From a virus: a stretch of DNA of 20,377 bases. Below, piece after piece: positions 1,763 through 15,208 of the stretch; position 1 is the first letter of the stretch; every line of letters begins with the position of its first letter. Made by a program: the position numbers and the translations under genes. Location of the stretch: IMG/VR virus record IMGVR_UViG_3300024255_001495, positions 1 through 20,377 of that record. The stretch is one strand, 5' to 3'. The notes under the pieces were generated by a model. The model did no database searches. It saw nothing but the letters and a program-made list of their open reading frames with translations, and was not told where the DNA came from.

Positions 1763-3301
1763 ATGGCAGTCCCAAGTGTTGCTTTAGCTTATAGAAGAAC
1801 GGCATTAATGAATGCCACTAAAGTAACAGTAAAACCACCATCACCTGAAGTATTAAAAGCAAGAGATAACTTTCAAGATTTCTGCGTATTAATGGGTAAG
1901 AAGCCAGCCAACCATATGTTGGAATGGCACGCCGAGCTATGCACAGGTGTTGATAGTGAATGTCTACTGGGAATTGGTGGACCTAATACAGCAATCCTTG
2001 CCCCACGGGGTTCAGCTAAATCAACAGTCCTTGGATTGTTTGCAGCATGGATGATTGGTAGACATACAGCTGCCAAGCAAATGCTACGAATACTGTATAT
2101 CGCCTATATGGTTGACATCAGTAGAGCTAAAAGTGCAACTATCAAAGGTATTTTAATAAGTAATAAATACCGTGAAATCTTTCCGATGGTGAGATTATCA
2201 AAAATTAAACGTTCAGATGAATACTGGAGTATTGACTATGACTTTGCAGGAATTGATACAGCAGGTGAAGAGGCGTTTACCATTGCGTGTGGAGGTCTCA
2301 AAGGAGCCATTACTTCAAAACGGTCACAATTGGTGCTTATCGATGACCCTATTAAATCCGCTGCGTCCATTAACAACCCAGACATTAGAAGGGAGATGGA
2401 GCAAACGTGGTCCAATGTCATTGCACCTACTATGTTCCAAGGAGCACGAGCTATATGTTTGGGAACTAGATTCCACTTTGACGATATCCATGCAACACTT
2501 TTTGTTCCCAAAAACAACTGGAAACAAATTATCCAGAAAGCTGTCATAACAGACGCAGAAGGTAGACAACGTTCGTATTGGCCAGAGTTCTGGTCTATGA
2601 AATACTTAAACGAACGCAAGATGGAGAACCGTGTTGCATTCGCATACCAGTATCTCAATACAGCAGTTCAATCAAGTGACGTTGGTATCTCACCAGACCT
2701 AATTGTCAAAGGCGAAGTCCCAGAAGATTATGACTGCCTAGGCGTCGGCATTGACCTTAGTGCTGGACTGAACGAAAAGAACGACTGGACTGTCTTCACG
2801 TTAGGTGGAATTAAGGACGGAAAGATATTCCTGATTGACCAGCGTAGGGTCAAGAGTATGGGAAACCTAGAGAAGATGGATACGCTGTGCGAAATGTTAG
2901 CTGACTGGAATGTGGTGCTTGAAAACGATGAGGGTCAATACTTCCCAACGATGTCACCGTGCATGATATGGCCAGAAGCCGTTGCCTACCAGTCATCATT
3001 TGAAGGCGACTTCAAACGTGTGATGTTTGAGCAACGTGCTCTGTATAACCTGAGCTGCTCACCAGTCAAAGGGTTTAAAGGTGACAAGCTTGCAAGACTA
3101 CGTGGAGTGCTTGGCCTGTATGAACACCGTAAGGTTGTATGGAACAAGTGGCGTAAGTGGAACATCCTTGAGGATGAACTCATCAACTTCGGACATTCGC
3201 CACATGATGACGCAGTGGACTCAATGGTGCTGACGATGGGCGGACTACTTAGACGTGGGGCTCTGCATTTGGAATATAACGAGAGTGCAATGGAGCTTTA
3301 A
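1763..3301 (+). CDS. terL: Terminase large subunit (ATPase and nuclease)
   Basis: This is the packaging motor that pumps DNA through the portal into the procapsid and cuts the concatemer. At 512 residues it is of normal length for the family. Residues 80-88 (APRGSAKST) are the Walker A loop. Residues 189-196 (QLVLIDDP) are Walker B with acidic D194-D195. Residues 231-243 (ICLGTRFHFDDIH) match the coupling motif. The C-terminal RNase H-like nuclease shows D331 in GVGIDLSAG, a candidate E405 in WPEA, and D482/D483/D486 in HDDAVDS. Both halves look intact. The gene sits downstream of the candidate small subunit and has its own TAGACT box. No frameshift or intron is seen, and ATG 1763 is the first start in the open frame after that box. 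Confidence 0.93.
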   Translation: MAVPSVALAYRRTALMNATKVTVKPPSPEVLKARDNFQDFCVLMGKKPANHMLEWHAELCTGVDSECLLGIGGPNTAILAPRGSAKSTVLGLFAAWMIGRHTAAKQMLRILYIAYMVDISRAKSATIKGILISNKYREIFPMVRLSKIKRSDEYWSIDYDFAGIDTAGEEAFTIACGGLKGAITSKRSQLVLIDDPIKSAASINNPDIRREMEQTWSNVIAPTMFQGARAICLGTRFHFDDIHATLFVPKNNWKQIIQKAVITDAEGRQRSYWPEFWSMKYLNERKMENRVAFAYQYLNTAVQSSDVGISPDLIVKGEVPEDYDCLGVGIDLSAGLNEKNDWTVFTLGGIKDGKIFLIDQRRVKSMGNLEKMDTLCEMLADWNVVLENDEGQYFPTMSPCMIWPEAVAYQSSFEGDFKRVMFEQRALYNLSCSPVKGFKGDKLARLRGVLGLYEHRKVVWNKWRKWNILEDELINFGHSPHDDAVDSMVLTMGGLLRRGALHLEYNESAMEL

Positions 3302-3346: not shown

Positions 3347-4924
3347 ATGGGTTGGTATCAACGTGAACAAGAGAGTAATGCACGAATAGCACGTGAAAAA
3401 CAAGAGCAAGCTGCTGCTCAAGCTAAGAAAGACCAGCAAGCTGCTGCACGTGACCAATTAGTTGGTAGCTGGCAAGATTTATATAACACTGGTGGTGACC
3501 AAGCAGTAGCAGACAATATTATTACCAACTATTCAGCTGAAGGTAGTTCTTATACAGCACAAGACTTAGCAGATGCTAAAGCAGTTAAAGAAGGTAAAAC
3601 CTTTCAAGAAGTAAGCTCAGCTAAAACTGACGCAGCCTACAAACGATACAACCAACTCTTTGGTAGCAACAGAACAAGATATGGGCCTCAAGGACAACTT
3701 GTTACTCAAATAATTACATGGGATGATTGGAGTAAGAACATACAAAAGTATGATAACTTCAGCGGATACGTAGACCCACAAATTCAAATTGACAAAGATA
3801 AAGCAGCTGCTGATAAGGCGGCAGCAGATAAAGCGGCAGCAGATAAAGCAGCAGCAGATAAGGCGGCAGCAGATAAAGCAGCAGCAGATGCAGCAGCCAA
3901 ACGTCAGGCTGACCTTGATGCAGCTCAAAGGCAAAAGGATGCAGCAGCTCAGGCTGCACTAAACAAGGAGCCAGCTCCTACTCCTCAAGCTCCGGTTAAA
4001 AAAGAAACACCAATAGAAGAAGCTAAAGGCCGAGCCGAAGAATATACAAACACAACGACTAAAGAGGGTAATACAATCACCAACAACATTACTCAGAATG
4101 TTGGAAACAAGGGAGATATGAAAACTGACATTGGGGATGATAATACAATTACAAACTCAGAAATTGGTAATGACAGCAGTGAGAATACTGGTAACATAAA
4201 TGTATCAAATCAACAAATAAATAAAGATACTCAAGAGTCACAGCAGAACAAAGCACGAGAAGAAGCAAAAGAGAGAGCAAAAGAATATAAGAATAAAAGC
4301 GACAAGAATACAAATACAGTGACTAATAACATTGAACAGAACGTTGGTAACAAAGGGGATATGACAACGGAGATTGGGAATGAAAATACAATTACTAACT
4401 CACAAATTGGTAATGACAAGAGTGAAAACAATGGCAACATAAATGTTAACAACCTGCAACAACAAGAGGAAACAAAAGCATTTAGGTCAGATTTGCTAAA
4501 TAGATTAGGCTCGTTAGAAGCGCAAGAAACTCAAAGAGCTGCCGATAAAAAAGCTGCAGCAGATAGAGCAAAGGCAGAACAGGCAACAGCAGCTGAAGCT
4601 CGGGCACAGCAAGAAGCTGCAGCTAAAGCTCAGGCACAGCAAGCAGCAGCCGATAAAAAGAAAAAGGACAAAGATGATTATGTATGGGGCTTAGTAGATA
4701 AAAGAGCTGACGCTTATAGGGCCAACGCAGATTACAGAGTAAGTAACGGAAACACCACAATTAATAATTCATATAGAGTAAATAATGATTTTCTACAAAA
4801 TACAGGAAACAAAGGCAACATGACTACAAGCTTCGGCAATAACAATAAGCTGAACAATGTTAGAGCTGGAAATGACTACAGCATCAACTTAGGGAATATC
4901 AACAGTTCAAACTACTCAATGTAG
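3347..4924 (+). CDS. Low-complexity protein with three helix-beta modules, probable virion appendage
   Basis: This 525-residue protein belongs to no family I recognise. Residues 1-40 are a charged Ala/Gln-rich helix. Residues 41-148 look globular (aromatics, WDDWSK). Residues 151-180 are six DKAAA pentapeptides, with further Ala/Lys/Gln helices to about 205. Modules follow at 224-286, 305-367 and 448-520. Each begins with a short helix (such as EEAKERAKEY) and continues with an Asn/Gly-rich stretch with the core QNVGNKGDM and IGND. A second Ala/Gln-rich coiled-coil region lies at 395-440. The modules recur once in each of the next two genes. Helical stalks alternating with Gly/Asn beta repeats suggest a fibre or decoration. 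The position between terminase and portal fits a structural role, but this is inference. Confidence 0.7.
   Translation: MGWYQREQESNARIAREKQEQAAAQAKKDQQAAARDQLVGSWQDLYNTGGDQAVADNIITNYSAEGSSYTAQDLADAKAVKEGKTFQEVSSAKTDAAYKRYNQLFGSNRTRYGPQGQLVTQIITWDDWSKNIQKYDNFSGYVDPQIQIDKDKAAADKAAADKAAADKAAADKAAADKAAADAAAKRQADLDAAQRQKDAAAQAALNKEPAPTPQAPVKKETPIEEAKGRAEEYTNTTTKEGNTITNNITQNVGNKGDMKTDIGDDNTITNSEIGNDSSENTGNINVSNQQINKDTQESQQNKAREEAKERAKEYKNKSDKNTNTVTNNIEQNVGNKGDMTTEIGNENTITNSQIGNDKSENNGNINVNNLQQQEETKAFRSDLLNRLGSLEAQETQRAADKKAAADRAKAEQATAAEARAQQEAAAKAQAQQAAADKKKKDKDDYVWGLVDKRADAYRANADYRVSNGNTTINNSYRVNNDFLQNTGNKGNMTTSFGNNNKLNNVRAGNDYSINLGNINSSNYSM
3797..3886 (+). repeat. Six tandem 15-bp repeats encoding DKAAA
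   Basis: Six consecutive 15-bp units of the form gataargcrgcwgcw encode DKAAA six times, followed by a degenerate DAAAK unit. The units differ only at third codon positions, typical of a young tandem array. They encode a continuous charged alanine helix. Slippage here could change the length of the helix in steps of five residues without breaking the frame. Confidence 0.85.
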
Positions 4925-4944
4925 GACTAGTAATTAATATTTGC

Positions 4945-4950
4945 TAAAAT
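4945..4950 (+). promoter_or_regulatory. -10-like TAAAAT box
   Basis: TAAAAT, preceded by TTGC, ends 26 nt before the ATG at 4977. The gap between the two genes is 52 bp. No -35 box and no convincing SD are seen. Confidence 0.45.
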
Positions 4951-4976
4951 CAGGAAAGATAACGCATTAGGCACAA

Positions 4977-5582
4977 ATGGGATTAAATACTGGAGCTGTA
5001 GGAGCCGATAGAGGCAAACCCGGAGAAGGTTCCGTAGATTATTATGGCCATGCTGATTACGAAAGAGACAAGCGTGCAGGCATCAGTGATGCAGATCTGC
5101 TAGCTAAAATCAATGCTGACCCAAGCAAAATGGGCAACGGCGGTGTAGGTGGAGATTTATATAGACAAATTCAAGCAGGCGCTAAGTCAGGTGGCGGCGG
5201 AGGTGGCGGTGGCGGTGGCGGTGGCTACTCAGGTGGAAGTGTAGGTGCTGGTGCTGGTTCATATAGGCCACCAGCTGTGAACTTCAACCCAGGCGGAATC
5301 GACATGGGTGGTGGCATGGGTGATAGTGGACCAGTATGGGATAACGATGATTTTATCCGTGGCCTAGCAAAAGAACGAGCTGAATCATTTACTGAAAGTG
5401 GCAGCACTAGCCAAAGCAACAGCATTACCAATAACATTGAACAGAACGTTGGCAATAAAGGCGACATGACAACAACTATTGGAGACGGCAATACAATTAA
5501 TAATTCTTCAATTGGTAACGATTACAGCTTAAACATGGGCAGCATTAACGTTGCCAATAGTCAAAGAAATCTTGCCTTATAG
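4977..5582 (+). CDS. Glycine-rich protein with one C-terminal helix-beta module
   Basis: This is a 201-residue protein in three parts. Residues 1-70 look like a small helical domain (HADYERDKRAGISDADLLAK, then DLYRQIQAGA). Residues 71-119 are flexible, with an uninterrupted run of twelve glycines (72-83) and further Gly/Pro-rich sequence. Residues 126-192 are one copy of the module shared with both neighbouring genes (GLAKERAESF, QNVGNKGDM, IGNDYS, SINV). The arrangement reads as a docking domain, a flexible linker and a shared beta module. It has its own TAAAAT box, and the next gene follows after nine bases, so the two are probably co-transcribed. Function unknown; a virion surface or neck part is my inference. 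Confidence 0.7.
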   Translation: MGLNTGAVGADRGKPGEGSVDYYGHADYERDKRAGISDADLLAKINADPSKMGNGGVGGDLYRQIQAGAKSGGGGGGGGGGGGYSGGSVGAGAGSYRPPAVNFNPGGIDMGGGMGDSGPVWDNDDFIRGLAKERAESFTESGSTSQSNSITNNIEQNVGNKGDMTTTIGDGNTINNSSIGNDYSLNMGSINVANSQRNLAL

Positions 5583-5591
5583 AGAAAACAA

Positions 5592-6356
5592 ATGAGCAAC
5601 TACGGACTCGACTTAAATAAAATTAAAAAGAAATTTAAGCAGTATCAGCAACCTGAATCACCTCAGATGTTTGCAGGGGGTAATCCTAATTTTGATGAGA
5701 AGAGTGGAACAGATAAAAAGAAGCCTAAAGGTAAAGTCACTAACTTTCCTGCTGATGCTGTAACAAATGAGCGTCCTCCAGCAGGTTCTTACAAAAAATC
5801 AGCGCAGCAGTTCAAAACAGACTATGCGAATGATTTAACAAGATACATGAACAAAAAGGGTGATACAACGACCAATACAACCAGTACTGAAACCAATAAC
5901 ATTGGCCAAAATGCTGGCAACAAAGAAGATATGACAACTAATATCGGTGACTATAACGACATTAAATACTCTAATATTGGCAATGATTACAGTGTCAATA
6001 TTGCTGGTATTGGTGATGGCTTCAGCAATATGCAAGGTGCTGCTGCTTATACAGCACTAAACAATAATCAGCATGCAAGGTCAAGTAGTGAAACCAATGG
6101 AATAAAACGTGCTGCTCAAGCATCTGAACAGGCAACAGGCTTGGTTGGAGCTAAAGACCGTGCAGCGAATTTGTATAACAGCCTTGGTTATTCACAGAAC
6201 TACTGGCGACAGAAAGCTGATGCACAGCAGAACTTCTACTTAGGTGATATTTTCGCACAGAAGGCACCTGATTTCCAGATGCCTGAATCACCTTCAGACC
6301 CAATGGATAATGATACAACGAAGGACTCAGTGAAAAAGTTCGAAGATAGTCTGTAA
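5592..6356 (+). CDS. Unknown protein with one divergent central helix-beta module
   Basis: This 254-residue protein starts with a lysine-rich segment (IKKKFKQYQQ). Residues 75-140 carry the most divergent copy of the shared module: helix (QFKTDYANDLTRYM), TNNIGQNAGNKEDM, TNIGDYND, then NIGNDYSVNI. Unlike its neighbours, which end on a module, it continues for over 100 residues that look helical (AAQASEQATGLVGAKDRAAN, then NYWRQKADAQQNF) and finishes in an acidic tail. No SD is obvious, and it lies nine bases after the previous gene with no TANAAT box of its own. The gene order up to the portal suggests a structural role. No known family is recognised. Confidence 0.7.
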   Translation: MSNYGLDLNKIKKKFKQYQQPESPQMFAGGNPNFDEKSGTDKKKPKGKVTNFPADAVTNERPPAGSYKKSAQQFKTDYANDLTRYMNKKGDTTTNTTSTETNNIGQNAGNKEDMTTNIGDYNDIKYSNIGNDYSVNIAGIGDGFSNMQGAAAYTALNNNQHARSSSETNGIKRAAQASEQATGLVGAKDRAANLYNSLGYSQNYWRQKADAQQNFYLGDIFAQKAPDFQMPESPSDPMDNDTTKDSVKKFEDSL

Positions 6357-6400: not shown

Positions 6401-8665
6401 ATGTCCAACAATAGCACTCAGTTTCAAGAGATACTTAACGCAGCTAAAGAGAAGAGAGGTGACTTACCTGTAGACACAATGATTGTGTCATCACACCTTG
6501 CTCAAATGCGTCTGTTTATCTTGAGACGTGGTGTTGAGTTTTTCTGTGACCAGGATTCTTACGCAGGACGCCGTGAATTCATAAAAGGAGTTTACGAAAG
6601 CAATATGCTTGAAATGAAGCTTGACAGCATCATTGATTATTTCTTGTGTGATGGACAAGGTTTATTCTATTTCAGGCCATCAGGAGATACCTATCAGATT
6701 CTATACTTCCCGAAAGATAGCTACAGATGTTATAGAGACCAGAATGGTGATATTGAACATGTAGAGCTTATCTATACGTTTGCTGTGAAAGAGCCACATA
6801 TGATGGATGCGTATGCTGTGCCTAATAAGCGTGGCGGACGTAAGAAGTATATAAAACTAAAAGTCTATAAAGACCGTATCGAGCAGACAATCTCAAACGA
6901 AAAGATTGACTTCGAGAATGGCACCAATGCAATGACCATGCAGCAGCCAGGTCAAACAGAAACACTGAGCAACAGCCTTGGTTTCATTCCTGCAGTTGAA
7001 GTCTTTAATCACTTGGATTGCACTGGCGAATCAACAGGGGTAGGTGAGTTTGATTGGATGGCTAATCAAATCCTGTTCCACGATGAGCTTGTACGTAACG
7101 TCCGTAAGAACATGAAGTTCTTCGGTAACCCCACACTGGTATCCAGCCGTCCACGTCACGACATTCTTGAAAGTGGTGATGAAGGTGCAATGCGTCCAAC
7201 CATTAGCTCACAAGCTGGGTTCTATGCAATGGATAGGCCAAGCACACGCACAAGTCAGCCAGGCTTCAGTGCTGGTATCGATGGACAAATCAAAGTTCCA
7301 CGTGTAATTGCAAACCTTGAGCCAACTGACCGTGTGTCCTATATGACACCTGATGCTGTCAGTGGTGACCAGAACATGTACGTCAAACAGTACAGGTCAG
7401 AAATTCGTCTAGCACTTGGTGGAGTAGATGACCTTGACTTCAACATGGCATCTTCTGCTTATGAGATGAAGTCTCTGTATGGCAGATGTGCAGCAACTGC
7501 AGAGAAAAAAGCAAAGGCATTGTTCGAGTATGGACTGTGCAAATTATTTGCAATGATGATTCAGCATGAAGAATATTTGTTTGAACAATCTTTCGCCACA
7601 GCAATGGGGCTTACAAATCCTGAGCCAGTTCTACAAGAGCAGTATCAAGACCCTGCTGAGTTTGAACAAGCACAAAAGATTTATCAGCAAGAACAGCAAA
7701 AGTTCCTTGATACAAGGGCACAATTGTTTTCTGCTAGTATTGAGTCAGGTCAAATACCTAATGGGGTTACTGGTTTAATCCCAGATGGCAGCAGCAAAGT
7801 TAATTGGCGCTGGACCGGGGAGATTTTCGAAGAGGATTCTCAAGGCATTCTAAATAACAGTATTGTCGTTAGAAACCTACAAGAATTAGGTGTCGATTCT
7901 ATTGAAGCACTTAAGTATCTCTTCCCTAGCAAAACTGATGAAGAACGTGCTGCCATGTTGACTGGATTCCCATTCAGGATGGTTCAACAATCTCAACAAG
8001 CTTTTAATTCATTCATAGGGATGATTGGTCAGTTATATCAGCTGCCACATCCACAAATGCCCAATCAGCCATTAGCGGCTGACCCGAATCTTGATATCAC
8101 AGGATTCCTATATAGATCACTCGAATTTTTACGTAAGGAGTTAAGTTACAGTGGAAAGTACCAGCCCGACAATGGCGACAGCGCCATCAGCAAGCTCAGC
8201 GACGCCGATCGTAAGCGCTCCCAGCTTGGCCTCCCCACACGGGATGAGCGCCCCGTCCAGTTACCAGGCAGCTCCTCAAGTGGCTCCGGTGGGTTCAATG
8301 GCCTACCAGCAAACGGCGGCCCCGCAGGCTTCGGCGGCCCCGGCAGCAGCAGCGAATCCATGGCAGGAAGCGTTCCAGGCACTCAGCGCAAGCCTGAATA
8401 CGCCTCAAGCCTCCCCGGCCCAGGCGTCATACTCGGCGTATCAGACGCCAACAACTCAAGCCAGTACCCAGGCCAGTTGGGGCTCACCCGCGCACCAGCA
8501 ATGGGCGAGTCAGGCGCAGCAGACTTACGCTCCCCAAGCTTCAACCCAGGGTTATTCGGCCCAGGAGCTCAGCCAAATCCAGCAGCTGGTGGCTCAGCAG
8601 CAGCACGCGGCTCAAGCGCAGGCTCAGGCTCAGTATCTAAGTCAAAGTCAAAGCGCTCCAAGTGA
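6401..8665 (+). CDS. Portal protein with a long Gly/Ser/Pro tail read over the next gene
   Basis: The portal forms the dodecameric ring at one capsid vertex through which DNA enters and leaves and to which the tail joins. Residues about 1-580 read as a phage portal: an N-terminal alpha/beta part, a segment near 205-245 (CTGESTGVGEFDWMANQILF, then DELVRNVRKNMKFFGNP), the region PTDRVSYMTPDAVSGDQNMY, and long helices (SLYGRCAATAEKKAKALFEY). At 754 residues it is long for the family. The excess is residues 584-754, a Gly/Ser/Pro-rich, probably disordered tail ending SKSKSKRSK. This tail lies entirely inside the overlap with the scaffold-like gene, where base composition turns markedly GC-rich. 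The fold assignment is by pattern and gene order. Confidence 0.85.
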   Translation: MSNNSTQFQEILNAAKEKRGDLPVDTMIVSSHLAQMRLFILRRGVEFFCDQDSYAGRREFIKGVYESNMLEMKLDSIIDYFLCDGQGLFYFRPSGDTYQILYFPKDSYRCYRDQNGDIEHVELIYTFAVKEPHMMDAYAVPNKRGGRKKYIKLKVYKDRIEQTISNEKIDFENGTNAMTMQQPGQTETLSNSLGFIPAVEVFNHLDCTGESTGVGEFDWMANQILFHDELVRNVRKNMKFFGNPTLVSSRPRHDILESGDEGAMRPTISSQAGFYAMDRPSTRTSQPGFSAGIDGQIKVPRVIANLEPTDRVSYMTPDAVSGDQNMYVKQYRSEIRLALGGVDDLDFNMASSAYEMKSLYGRCAATAEKKAKALFEYGLCKLFAMMIQHEEYLFEQSFATAMGLTNPEPVLQEQYQDPAEFEQAQKIYQQEQQKFLDTRAQLFSASIESGQIPNGVTGLIPDGSSKVNWRWTGEIFEEDSQGILNNSIVVRNLQELGVDSIEALKYLFPSKTDEERAAMLTGFPFRMVQQSQQAFNSFIGMIGQLYQLPHPQMPNQPLAADPNLDITGFLYRSLEFLRKELSYSGKYQPDNGDSAISKLSDADRKRSQLGLPTRDERPVQLPGSSSSGSGGFNGLPANGGPAGFGGPGSSSESMAGSVPGTQRKPEYASSLPGPGVILGVSDANNSSQYPGQLGLTRAPAMGESGAADLRSPSFNPGLFGPGAQPNPAAGGSAAARGSSAGSGSVSKSKSKRSK
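8134..8140 (+). promoter_or_regulatory. Strong Shine-Dalgarno site inside the portal gene
   Basis: TAAGGAG lies ten bases before a GTG at 8151, within the portal coding sequence. It is one of the best SD sequences in the window. It fixes GTG 8151 as the start of the scaffold-like gene and argues that the long overlap is real. Confidence 0.8.
8151..8665 (+). other. 515-bp dual-coding overlap (portal tail / scaffold-like N-terminus)
   Basis: Two plus-strand frames remain open together for 171 codons, both end in ordinary gene features, and the inner one has its own SD. The bases are visibly richer in G and C than flanking DNA. Portal-frame codons end mostly in C (ggc, agc, ccc, gcc) because that base is the second codon position for Ala, Ser and Pro in the inner frame. 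Composition returns to normal shortly after the portal stop at 8665. Confidence 0.8.
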
Positions 8666-10137: not shown

Positions 10138-11079
10138 ATGACATCAATCAAACTTTCAGGTGATTCTGTCCGAGCATATTTAAGAGATATCGGACGAATC
10201 CCATTGCTAGAGCACGAAGAAGAAATCTTGCTCGGTCGCAAAGTCCAACGTCTAATGGAGATTAAAGAAATTGAAAGCGAAATGGAAATTCAGAGCCAAG
10301 ATGATTTGGCTGGGATTCTTGGTATCCCTGTTAAGGACCTCAAGCGTCAACTAAGGGAAGGTGAGAAAGCTAAGGACAAAATGGTCACAGCGAACCTACG
10401 TCTGGTCGTTAGTGTTGCCAAGAAATATACCAAGCGCAATATGGAACTCTTGGACATCATTCAGGAAGGGACGATTGGTCTCGTCCGTGGTGTCGAGAAG
10501 TTTGACCCTGGTCGTGGCTATAAGTTTAGTACCTATGCTTATTGGTGGATACGGCAAGGCATCACGCGGGCCATTGCGGAGAAATCGCGGGCAATACGCC
10601 TACCAATTCACGTTACAGAAAACCTCAACAAACTCAAGAAAGCTCAACGGGAACTAAGTCAAATCAACGGTGAGATGCCAACAGTATTCCAGCTTGCTGA
10701 ATACCTGGAGTTCACAGTAGATGAAATTAAAGACTTGATGTGTAAGTCACGTCAGCCGACATCACTAGAAATCAAGATTGGTGAGAACCGCGATACTGCC
10801 CTAATCGACTTGCTTGAAGATGAAACACAGTTACCAGAGATGCTGCTAGAACGTCAGTCCATCAAAGAGAACATGCGTGAAATCATTCATGATCTTCCTG
10901 AGATGCAAGCAGCGGTGGTACGTATGCGATATGGCATCGGAGAAGAGATTTTAGAGCCAATGTCAATGACTGCAATTGGTCAAGTACTTAATATGAGCAG
11001 AGACCGTGTACGCACTTTAGAAAACAAGGCTATGCGTGCTATCCGTGAGCAATCTGAGAATTTGAACGAATATCTTTAA
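10138..11079 (+). CDS. RNA polymerase sigma-70 factor, cyanobacterial group 2-like
   Basis: Sigma factors direct RNA polymerase to promoters. This 313-residue protein has all major regions: 1.2 (residues 8-40, DSVRAYLRDIGRIPLL), 2.1-2.4 (about 78-155, with LDIIQEGTIGLVRGVEKFD and YAYWWIRQGITRAIAEKSR), region 3 (about 160-230) and region 4 with its helix-turn-helix (276-300, SMTAIGQVLNMSRDRVRTLE). Residues equivalent to E. coli Y430, W433, W434, Q437 and T440, which contact the -10 box, are kept. In region 4.2 the residues equivalent to E585 and Q589 are Asp and Thr, which could weaken or change -35 reading. It lacks the long N-terminal region 1.1 of primary sigmas. Its likely job is redirecting polymerase to phage late promoters. 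Confidence 0.93.
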   Translation: MTSIKLSGDSVRAYLRDIGRIPLLEHEEEILLGRKVQRLMEIKEIESEMEIQSQDDLAGILGIPVKDLKRQLREGEKAKDKMVTANLRLVVSVAKKYTKRNMELLDIIQEGTIGLVRGVEKFDPGRGYKFSTYAYWWIRQGITRAIAEKSRAIRLPIHVTENLNKLKKAQRELSQINGEMPTVFQLAEYLEFTVDEIKDLMCKSRQPTSLEIKIGENRDTALIDLLEDETQLPEMLLERQSIKENMREIIHDLPEMQAAVVRMRYGIGEEILEPMSMTAIGQVLNMSRDRVRTLENKAMRAIREQSENLNEYL

Positions 11080-12263: not shown

Positions 12264-12773
12264 TTAGGTATCACTTTCTTCTATTTTAACTGCTTTCTGT
12301 TTATCTCTGAGACGACGCATGTAGTCACGCTTTGATATACGTTGACGCTCCTTTGCAGCAGCAGCTTGTTCAGGAGTATTCTTAGGTCTACGTTGGTATT
12401 CACGCTTAGTATTATTCTCAGTCCAGCTAACCCATCGCAAATTCGATGCATCAGGATTAGTTTTATCTTCATCAATATGGTCAACGATAGTACATCCTTT
12501 TGCATTCCCATAAGGTGTAGGTGGTGGACCTAGAAATGCAAATGCAACAAGCTTGTGCACACAGACATCAAGTATTTTGCCTTTACCAATCCGCTGAGTC
12601 AAACATACTGTTGGATAACCAGCCTTATGTGGACGATGCTTTAGCAATCTATCTTTATTTTGCTTAGTAGATTTAACGTCACCTTTGCGATTTACATAGT
12701 ATTCAATACAAGCCTCAAACCCCGGCAATGTATGAACTGGAACCCATTCTTGTGTATCAATAAACCTTTCCAT
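12264..12773 (-). CDS. HNH homing-type endonuclease
   Basis: This 169-residue protein resembles free-standing phage HNH endonucleases, which nick or cut DNA and spread their own gene. Residues about 8-36 (EWVPVHTLPGFEACIEYYVN, then RKGDVKS) resemble a NUMOD4-type DNA-binding segment, with the usual Tyr-x-Val-Asn and Gly-x-Val-Lys-Ser. The HNH core runs from H73 (VHKLVAFAFLG) through D98-H99 (VDHIDEDKTNPDASNLRWVS) to the Asn residues near 105, 111 and 120. The C-terminus is very basic (KERQRISKRDYMRRLRDKQK), suited to DNA contact. It is on the opposite strand to the structural genes, just before the capsid gene, as expected for an inserted mobile gene. The residues look intact. Confidence 0.85.
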   Translation of the reverse strand: MERFIDTQEWVPVHTLPGFEACIEYYVNRKGDVKSTKQNKDRLLKHRPHKAGYPTVCLTQRIGKGKILDVCVHKLVAFAFLGPPPTPYGNAKGCTIVDHIDEDKTNPDASNLRWVSWTENNTKREYQRRPKNTPEQAAAAKERQRISKRDYMRRLRDKQKAVKIEESDT

Positions 12774-14776: not shown

Positions 14777-15208
14777 ATGAGTAACTTATTTCAAGATTCC
14801 AAAACTGGAAAGCTCGTTGAGTTTATCAACAAGCATGATAAAGAATTTGCAATGGTGCGTGATGCTGGAGGGAATATTACTTATGTCAACCTTGAGCAAC
14901 TTGTGCCTTATGACCGTGATAAAGGACGTCTCGCAAAAGTCGCTGCCCCGCAAATTGCACCAGAACCAGAAGAGCAAATGCCCAACACAGTTGTTCCTAT
15001 TGAAGATACACGTTTGAATTTGAATACAGCACCTGCTGAACAAATTGCAAAACGTCTGCCTGGAGTAGGTTATGCAACAGCTAAGCGTATCGTTGAGCTA
15101 CGTATGTCCCTCAGTGGTGAGAGGTTTGCAAACCTCAAGCAGCTAGAGAACATTCCACGTGTGAATTGGGAACAGTTGATTGATGAAGACCTTATCTTCA
15201 TTAGTTAA
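14777..15208 (+). CDS. Helix-hairpin-helix (ComEA-like) protein in the structural cluster
   Basis: This is a 143-residue protein. Residues 1-50 look like a small beta domain (GKLVEFINKHDKEFAMVRDA, then NITYVNLEQLVPYD). A Pro/Glu-rich linker spans about 58-78. Residues 80-135 match the helix-hairpin-helix domain of ComEA-type proteins, with the hallmark LNLNTAPAEQIAKRLPGVGY and ATAKRIVELR, followed by FANLKQLENIP. HhH pairs usually bind DNA backbones without sequence preference. In a run of head and connector genes, such a protein might hold the end of the packaged DNA or link to the connector. That is inference. It begins a unit behind TATAAT with no clear SD. Confidence 0.72.
   Translation: MSNLFQDSKTGKLVEFINKHDKEFAMVRDAGGNITYVNLEQLVPYDRDKGRLAKVAAPQIAPEPEEQMPNTVVPIEDTRLNLNTAPAEQIAKRLPGVGYATAKRIVELRMSLSGERFANLKQLENIPRVNWEQLIDEDLIFIS

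Follow-up and report, generated by a model that had tools for sequence, protein, structure and literature searches.

The locus analysed here raises the question why three adjacent phage proteins, encoded in the slot between the terminase and the putative portal gene, should carry copies of one and the same module. The window, i.e. the whole stretch of DNA that was analysed, is an entire IMG/VR virus record of 20,377 bases (20.4 kb). Its source is an uncultured relative of the Synechococcus phage S-EIV1, a marine cyanobacterial virus: a related large terminase subunit (TerL) and a related structural protein were found in the same gene order. The window TerL is 54.8% identical to that of S-EIV1 (KJ410740) at 97% coverage, and the order TerL-slot-portal is as in S-EIV1, whose slot was located by means of both genes. 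The protein downstream of the slot is a putative portal, judged by its size and position. Together with the window 80 relatives were fetched, labelled L001 etc. (L001 is S-EIV1). The slot and its boundaries contain the following features.

1763..3301, + strand: TerL, left slot boundary (phrog_38, E = 3.4e-69; 55% identity to S-EIV1 TerL)
3347..4924, + strand: protein A (ORF), 525 aa, long alpha-helical segments alternating with three module copies
4061..4210, + strand: module copy A1, conserved core (HMM domain match; against B E = 1.1e-19)
4304..4453, + strand: module copy A2, conserved core (HMM domain match; E = 2.4e-18)
4763..4912, + strand: module copy A3, C-terminus of A (HMM domain match; E = 2.8e-14)
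4977..5582, + strand: protein B (ORF, domain layout), 201 aa, N-terminal helical domain, glycine-rich linker, helix, C-terminal module
5037..5183, + strand: N-terminal domain 'NTDa' of B (YYGHADY...LYRQI; HMM E = 1e-25), exchangeable among slot proteins of relatives
5409..5558, + strand: module copy B1, C-terminus of B (HMM domain match)
5592..6356, + strand: protein C (ORF; homologue alignment A5), 254 aa, N-terminal linker, module, conserved C-terminal tail domain
5871..6011, + strand: module copy C1 (HMM domain match; E = 7.3e-13)
6024..6311, + strand: conserved tail domain of C, ~95 aa, ...QNYWRxKADAQQNFYLGDIF..., constant element of the slot
6401..8665, + strand: putative portal / virion structural protein, right slot boundary (phrog_20475, head and packaging, E = 2.4e-179)

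Several other genes of the window were characterized. A complete sigma-70 factor (10138-11079, + strand; regions 1.2, 2, 3 and 4, E down to 6e-23) lies within the phage structural cluster and could drive late transcription. An HNH endonuclease with a NUMOD4 motif (12264-12773, - strand), encoded on the strand opposite to the structural cluster, is probably a homing endonuclease inserted in it. Between capsid-region genes there is a small protein with a ComEA-like helix-hairpin-helix domain (14777-15208, + strand; HHH_3, E = 4.9e-10). A 270-aa protein (102-914, + strand) consists in part of ~12-residue repeats (GNVDINKIGAQGQVDKDKINTQG...) unlike the module of A, B and C; Pfam and PHROG scans assigned it to no family above threshold.

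As claimed in an earlier note on this DNA, five module copies are distributed over the three adjacent proteins, three in A and one each in B and C. A search of the record with B retrieved the remaining four copies at 47-66% identity and with the E values listed above (1.1e-19 to 7.3e-13), indicating that their similarity is far above chance. The core consensus is roughly xQNxGNKGDMTTxIGDxNTIxxSxIGNDYSxNxGxINV, with G, I, GND and S as ordered invariant positions. The earlier note had described a module of 63-73 residues that starts with a helix and usually contains GxINV. This description needed trimming: the conserved core comprises only ~50 residues, the leading helix is present in the window and in close relatives and absent from some module-bearing relatives (e.g. 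L017, L018 and L078), and GxINV is matched exactly in three of the five copies. The proposed 10-11-residue recurrence held. The commonest spacings between [VILFA]-G-x motifs are 10 (24 cases) and 11 residues (25 cases), and the autocorrelation of hydrophobicity has maxima at lags 6, 10 and 11 (z = 5.7, 4.4 and 5.5 relative to shuffles).

Iterated HMM searches detected the module in about 20 relatives, always within the terminase-portal slot, and in the 10 records (23-78 kb) that were searched whole it lies nowhere outside this slot. Homologues of protein A with two to three copies occur in L014/L015 and L021. IMG/VR scans with three module alignments gave matches only in phages of this lineage, and the single match in a genome collection scan fell on a contig of a metagenome-assembled genome that itself carries this terminase and portal. 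(Collection scans were run with subsets of the module alignment, the variability of all 37 rows together being too high.) Annotated phages were also searched at the DNA and protein levels, with A, B, C and variants of the module as queries, but no match was obtained; these searches were low-complexity filtered and may have omitted close records. Profile searches likewise yielded no convincing Pfam, PHROG or PDB family, in agreement with the earlier note, whose author did not recognise the module. A, B and C had no Pfam match up to E = 1, and the slot proteins of the window and its relatives gave only weak or biased matches in Pfam and PHROG. The module is thus, together with the tail domain and the N-terminal domains described below, outside any curated family found.

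The 59 non-redundant slots include 56 of the marine type, which encode one (30/56), two (23/56) or three proteins (3/56). Since about half of them encode a single protein, a heteromer is not universal. The total length of the one to three slot proteins ranges from 209 to 1,154 aa, beside a TerL of 88.5% median identity and a portal of 71.6%. A second module type (VNQDNDI...GDNNTV...QDNSIRQYGG) is common to neighbouring slot proteins and occurs only beside the same terminase family, and in some other relatives this slot contains an Asn-rich module of another type. The slots of L035 (3389-5953), L078 (2834-4783) and L056 (4066-5967) contain quite different short-period repeats (YEGDNVSAYGDES..., NNSINDSMNTN... 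and NSGNTSIDKR...), as if any short-period repeat would do. Modules are absent from the slots of freshwater relatives and of S-EIV1, indicating that they are dispensable for this type of virion. The S-EIV1 slot differs from that of the window in encoding proteins of 97, 61 and 114 aa without modules. In L081-L086 the slot has shrunk to one 60-aa protein (phrog_661, unknown function), to which the 61-aa protein of S-EIV1 looks related.

The constant element of the slot is the ~95-residue tail of C, which follows the module. It was found in exactly one copy in 52 of the 56 non-redundant marine-type slots, and among 10 large records (49-87 kb) eight contain it exactly once. Profile searches of PDB that started from the tail yielded no informative match. 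In slots of two or three proteins B usually consists of a small N-terminal helical domain and a C-terminal module whose type matches that of C of the same phage. Three recurrent types of N-terminal domain were recognised on B, and these domains shuffle among B, C and single slot proteins. NTDa, located on B in the window, is found on C of L076 (where B carries domain c) and in the single slot protein of L035. The parts of the three proteins outside the module, which had been called unrelated, are therefore in part exchangeable between slot proteins. Domain b (GFSxxDIxxxAxxxGxxxGxxAQxxL) is present in 27 copies (L053:3670-3825 and 26 others, alignment A9) and resembled TALE-like BurrH repeats and the CBL UBA domain in a PDB profile search. 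The large-looking BurrH match is a sum of sub-threshold repeats and was kept as a lead only; the likeness may reflect merely a common helix-capping pattern.

The matching of module types between neighbouring proteins was tested in 24 phages with at least two slot proteins. Each B was aligned to each C, and z-scores were calculated relative to residue-shuffled sequences. The mean z of same-phage B-C pairs was 12.3, compared with 4.6 for permuted partners, a value reached in none of 20,000 permutations. With 11 representatives of at most 85% portal identity the difference persisted (z 13.7 versus 5.0; 0/50,000 permutations). It was weaker with five representatives (395/50,000), and three had no power. 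The best-scoring alignment of B with C coincided with, or contained, a shared repeat or module close to the C-terminal end of B in 23 of the 24 phages; the repeat region of L045, a member of this set, is less regular. Self pairs were not always the top match (ranks 1-10 in the 24-phage test). Among the closest seven phages the matching persisted with the core alone (8/5,040 permutations). Parallel residues could be seen directly: M follows G[DN] in all five window copies, W follows GD in both B and C of L008 and likewise of L016, and in L007 both proteins have F instead of I at two positions of the core.

It was important to consider whether the resemblance comes from mere low-complexity Asn/Gly/Asp/Ser sequence, i.e. 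a common composition, or from recent gene conversion. The composition of the modules is indeed biased, and A1 and A2 are 81% identical at the amino acid level over a 31-residue core, share 16 of 24 codons and look like a recent duplicate, more recent than the resemblance between B and C. However, the z-scores were measured against residue-shuffled sequences, and the invariant positions G, I, GND and S are ordered. At residues identical in B and C of the same phage the same codon was used at a fraction of 0.471 (871 sites), with 0.428 expected from codon usage; for different-phage pairs the values were 0.435 and 0.424. Fractions so near to expectation show that synonymous sites are near saturation and that the B-C match is kept at the protein level. 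Recent gene conversion of the B-C pair was therefore rejected, and recent duplication is not needed to explain the match. Given the small codon excess, some conversion between B and C in the more distant past is conceivable, and the same-codon fraction was somewhat higher in L008 and L016. Composition and conversion, largely refuted by the z-scores and the codon test, are very improbable as the explanation. The covariation of module types between adjacent proteins in 24 relatives, which does not result from recent gene conversion, strongly supports the suggestion of the earlier note that the shared module marks parts that co-assemble.

The fold of the module was approached by AlphaFold2 prediction of the A and C monomers. 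For A, helices were predicted at residues 2-47, 144-205 and 370-463 with pLDDT mostly 80-96, and most of the module sequence had a pLDDT of about 27-41. Protein C had about 45 overall. Structure prediction, which had been suggested as a check, thus failed for the module parts. Such low values would be expected for an obligate oligomer, or for disorder, and the poor models leave a beta fold unproven. The module profile gave weak PDB matches to LpxA (E = 2) and GlmU (E = 7.4), and Pfam Hexapep matched one relative at a weak E = 0.0043 and none of the window proteins. A short beta-solenoid would be consistent with these hexapeptide-like signals and with the periodicity at lag 6. The beta-solenoid part of the original proposal therefore stands only as far as periodicity and weak matches carry it, and a curli-like module found no counterpart in Pfam.

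On balance we consider it probable, if only just, that the slot encodes a small, fast-evolving, multi-subunit structure, possibly an appendage, with C anchored by its tail and the module serving as a joint for B and A through beta rungs. In such a structure C would be the constant component and its C-terminal tail the probable anchor. The joint would be present once on C, once at the end of B and three times on A, where long helices separate the copies. Within one phage all module copies would belong to the same matched type and bind one another in register; an oligomer, for instance a trimer, of short beta rungs that are stacked or intertwined is the most likely arrangement. One anchor could thereby bear N-terminal domains of different kinds, whether these are carried by B or by C. 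Direct contact between modules, the oligomeric state and the beta-solenoid-like fold are what we infer from these data. The least certain element, deduced from gene position, is the site of the slot proteins as a virion appendage, a fibre or spike near the portal or tail that contacts the host. An appendage is nevertheless the likeliest location of the putative joint structure, and the high variability of the slot beside a near-constant terminase fits an exposed one. The mixed fibre or surface layer proposed in the earlier note is a possible form of it.

The same genes might instead encode internal core or ejected proteins, as the position of gp6.7 and gp7.3 in T7 would suggest, with the module organising them in the head or in the portal-tail channel. 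In T7, gp6.7 is a component of the core, and gp7.3 helps to assemble the nozzle (PMC11784390). The slot genes adjoin the portal gene, the helices predicted in A are long, and by eye no signal peptide or membrane segment was seen in the slot sequences. On the other hand, PHROG scans found no match to an ejection protein, and the extreme variability, the domain shuffling and the Pro/Gly linkers look more like an exposed part. An internal role is thus possible but appears rather unlikely. Somewhat less probable still is that the modules do not touch, and that each binds a common third phage component (e.g. the portal, an adaptor or a scaffold) and coevolves with it. Phage-specific matching of B and C modules would equally arise in this way. 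However, the parallel changes affect apolar, core-like positions, which is more natural for mutual packing than for surface sites, and TerL, encoded next to the slot, hardly varies. That the covarying positions are apolar speaks for direct packing rather than for a common third partner.

We regard as improbable that the module is an amyloid-like beta-solenoid motif templating between neighbouring proteins, as in HET-s/NWD2 or in bacterial amyloid signalling pairs. Short matched motifs in adjacent genes, with one or several copies per protein, are exactly the signature by which amyloid signalling motifs are searched for (PMC9815663), and the 10-11-residue periodicity would suit them. Against this, the genes lie in a structural cluster, neither an NLR nor a cell-death partner was found, and the module profile had no HET-s match in PDB at E up to 10.

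If the preferred reading, a tail-anchored structure joined by modules, is correct, one may tentatively go further and think of a private 'docking code': a short beta-solenoid module type, specific to a phage group, common to two or three neighbouring proteins and undescribed so far. We hold this extension to be doubtful. Were it true, only subunits of the same phage would co-assemble on the conserved anchor, the mounted domains could reshuffle freely, and cross-assembly in mixed infections would be prevented. Module types that covary between neighbouring genes beside a near-constant terminase are a clean natural experiment in co-assembly specificity. The proteins are small, so matched and mismatched pairs are directly testable, and the model offers candidate roles for hypothetical genes of a widespread cyanophage lineage.

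Comparison with known systems helps to place the slot. The Hexapep family is characterized by tandem [LIV]-[GAED]-x2-[STAV]-x repeats forming a triangular left-handed solenoid. Like LpxA and GlmU, the module shows a hydrophobic lag of 6, and relatives have hexapeptide-like runs (in L017 IGNGND-FGDGVR-VGGDYS-ITLGRN); unlike them, the window type has a period of 6+5 = 11, sequence for about two turns and no acyltransferase. Curlin repeats follow the pattern S-x5-Q-x-G-x2-N-x-A-x3-Q, and curli is an extracellular fibre nucleated by CsgB and encoded with csg operon partners. A CsgA/CsgB-like family is not supported, the locus being a phage packaging and structural cluster and A, B and C lacking Pfam matches at the cutoff given above. 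The genes of the small T7 structural proteins gp6.7 and gp7.3 directly precede the portal gene, as the slot genes precede that of the putative portal, but no homology to the slot proteins was detectable in PHROG scans; gp6.7 and gp7.3 are not known to share a repeated module.

Amyloid signalling pairs combine an NLR or receptor with a cell-death effector, and the motif forms amyloid fibrils. The likeness to HET-s/NWD2 and to bacterial amyloid signalling sequences (BASS) lies in a matched motif, single or repeated, in the proteins of adjacent genes (PMC9815663), as the covariation in 24 phages shows for the slot. The difference is that the module sits in a phage structural context, that HET-s chains show no sequence match to it, and that no NLR or cell-death Pfam domains were found in the slot proteins of the window or its relatives. 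In the branched tailspike complex of phage CBA120 (TSP1-4) several structural proteins are reported to be joined to one anchor protein via dedicated assembly domains, with variable partners (PMC8825819). The slot structure would resemble it in joining several structural proteins to one anchor. In TSP4 of CBA120 the anchor and the assembly domains (XD, T4 gp10-like) are N-terminal, whereas in the slot the C-terminal tail of C would act as anchor and a module of ~50 residues as joint. Pfam and PDB profile searches of the slot proteins found no XD or gp10-like domains and no sequence relation to the CBA120 proteins. The mounting of different subunits on one anchor via a shared domain is already known, but in a module outside the curated families found.
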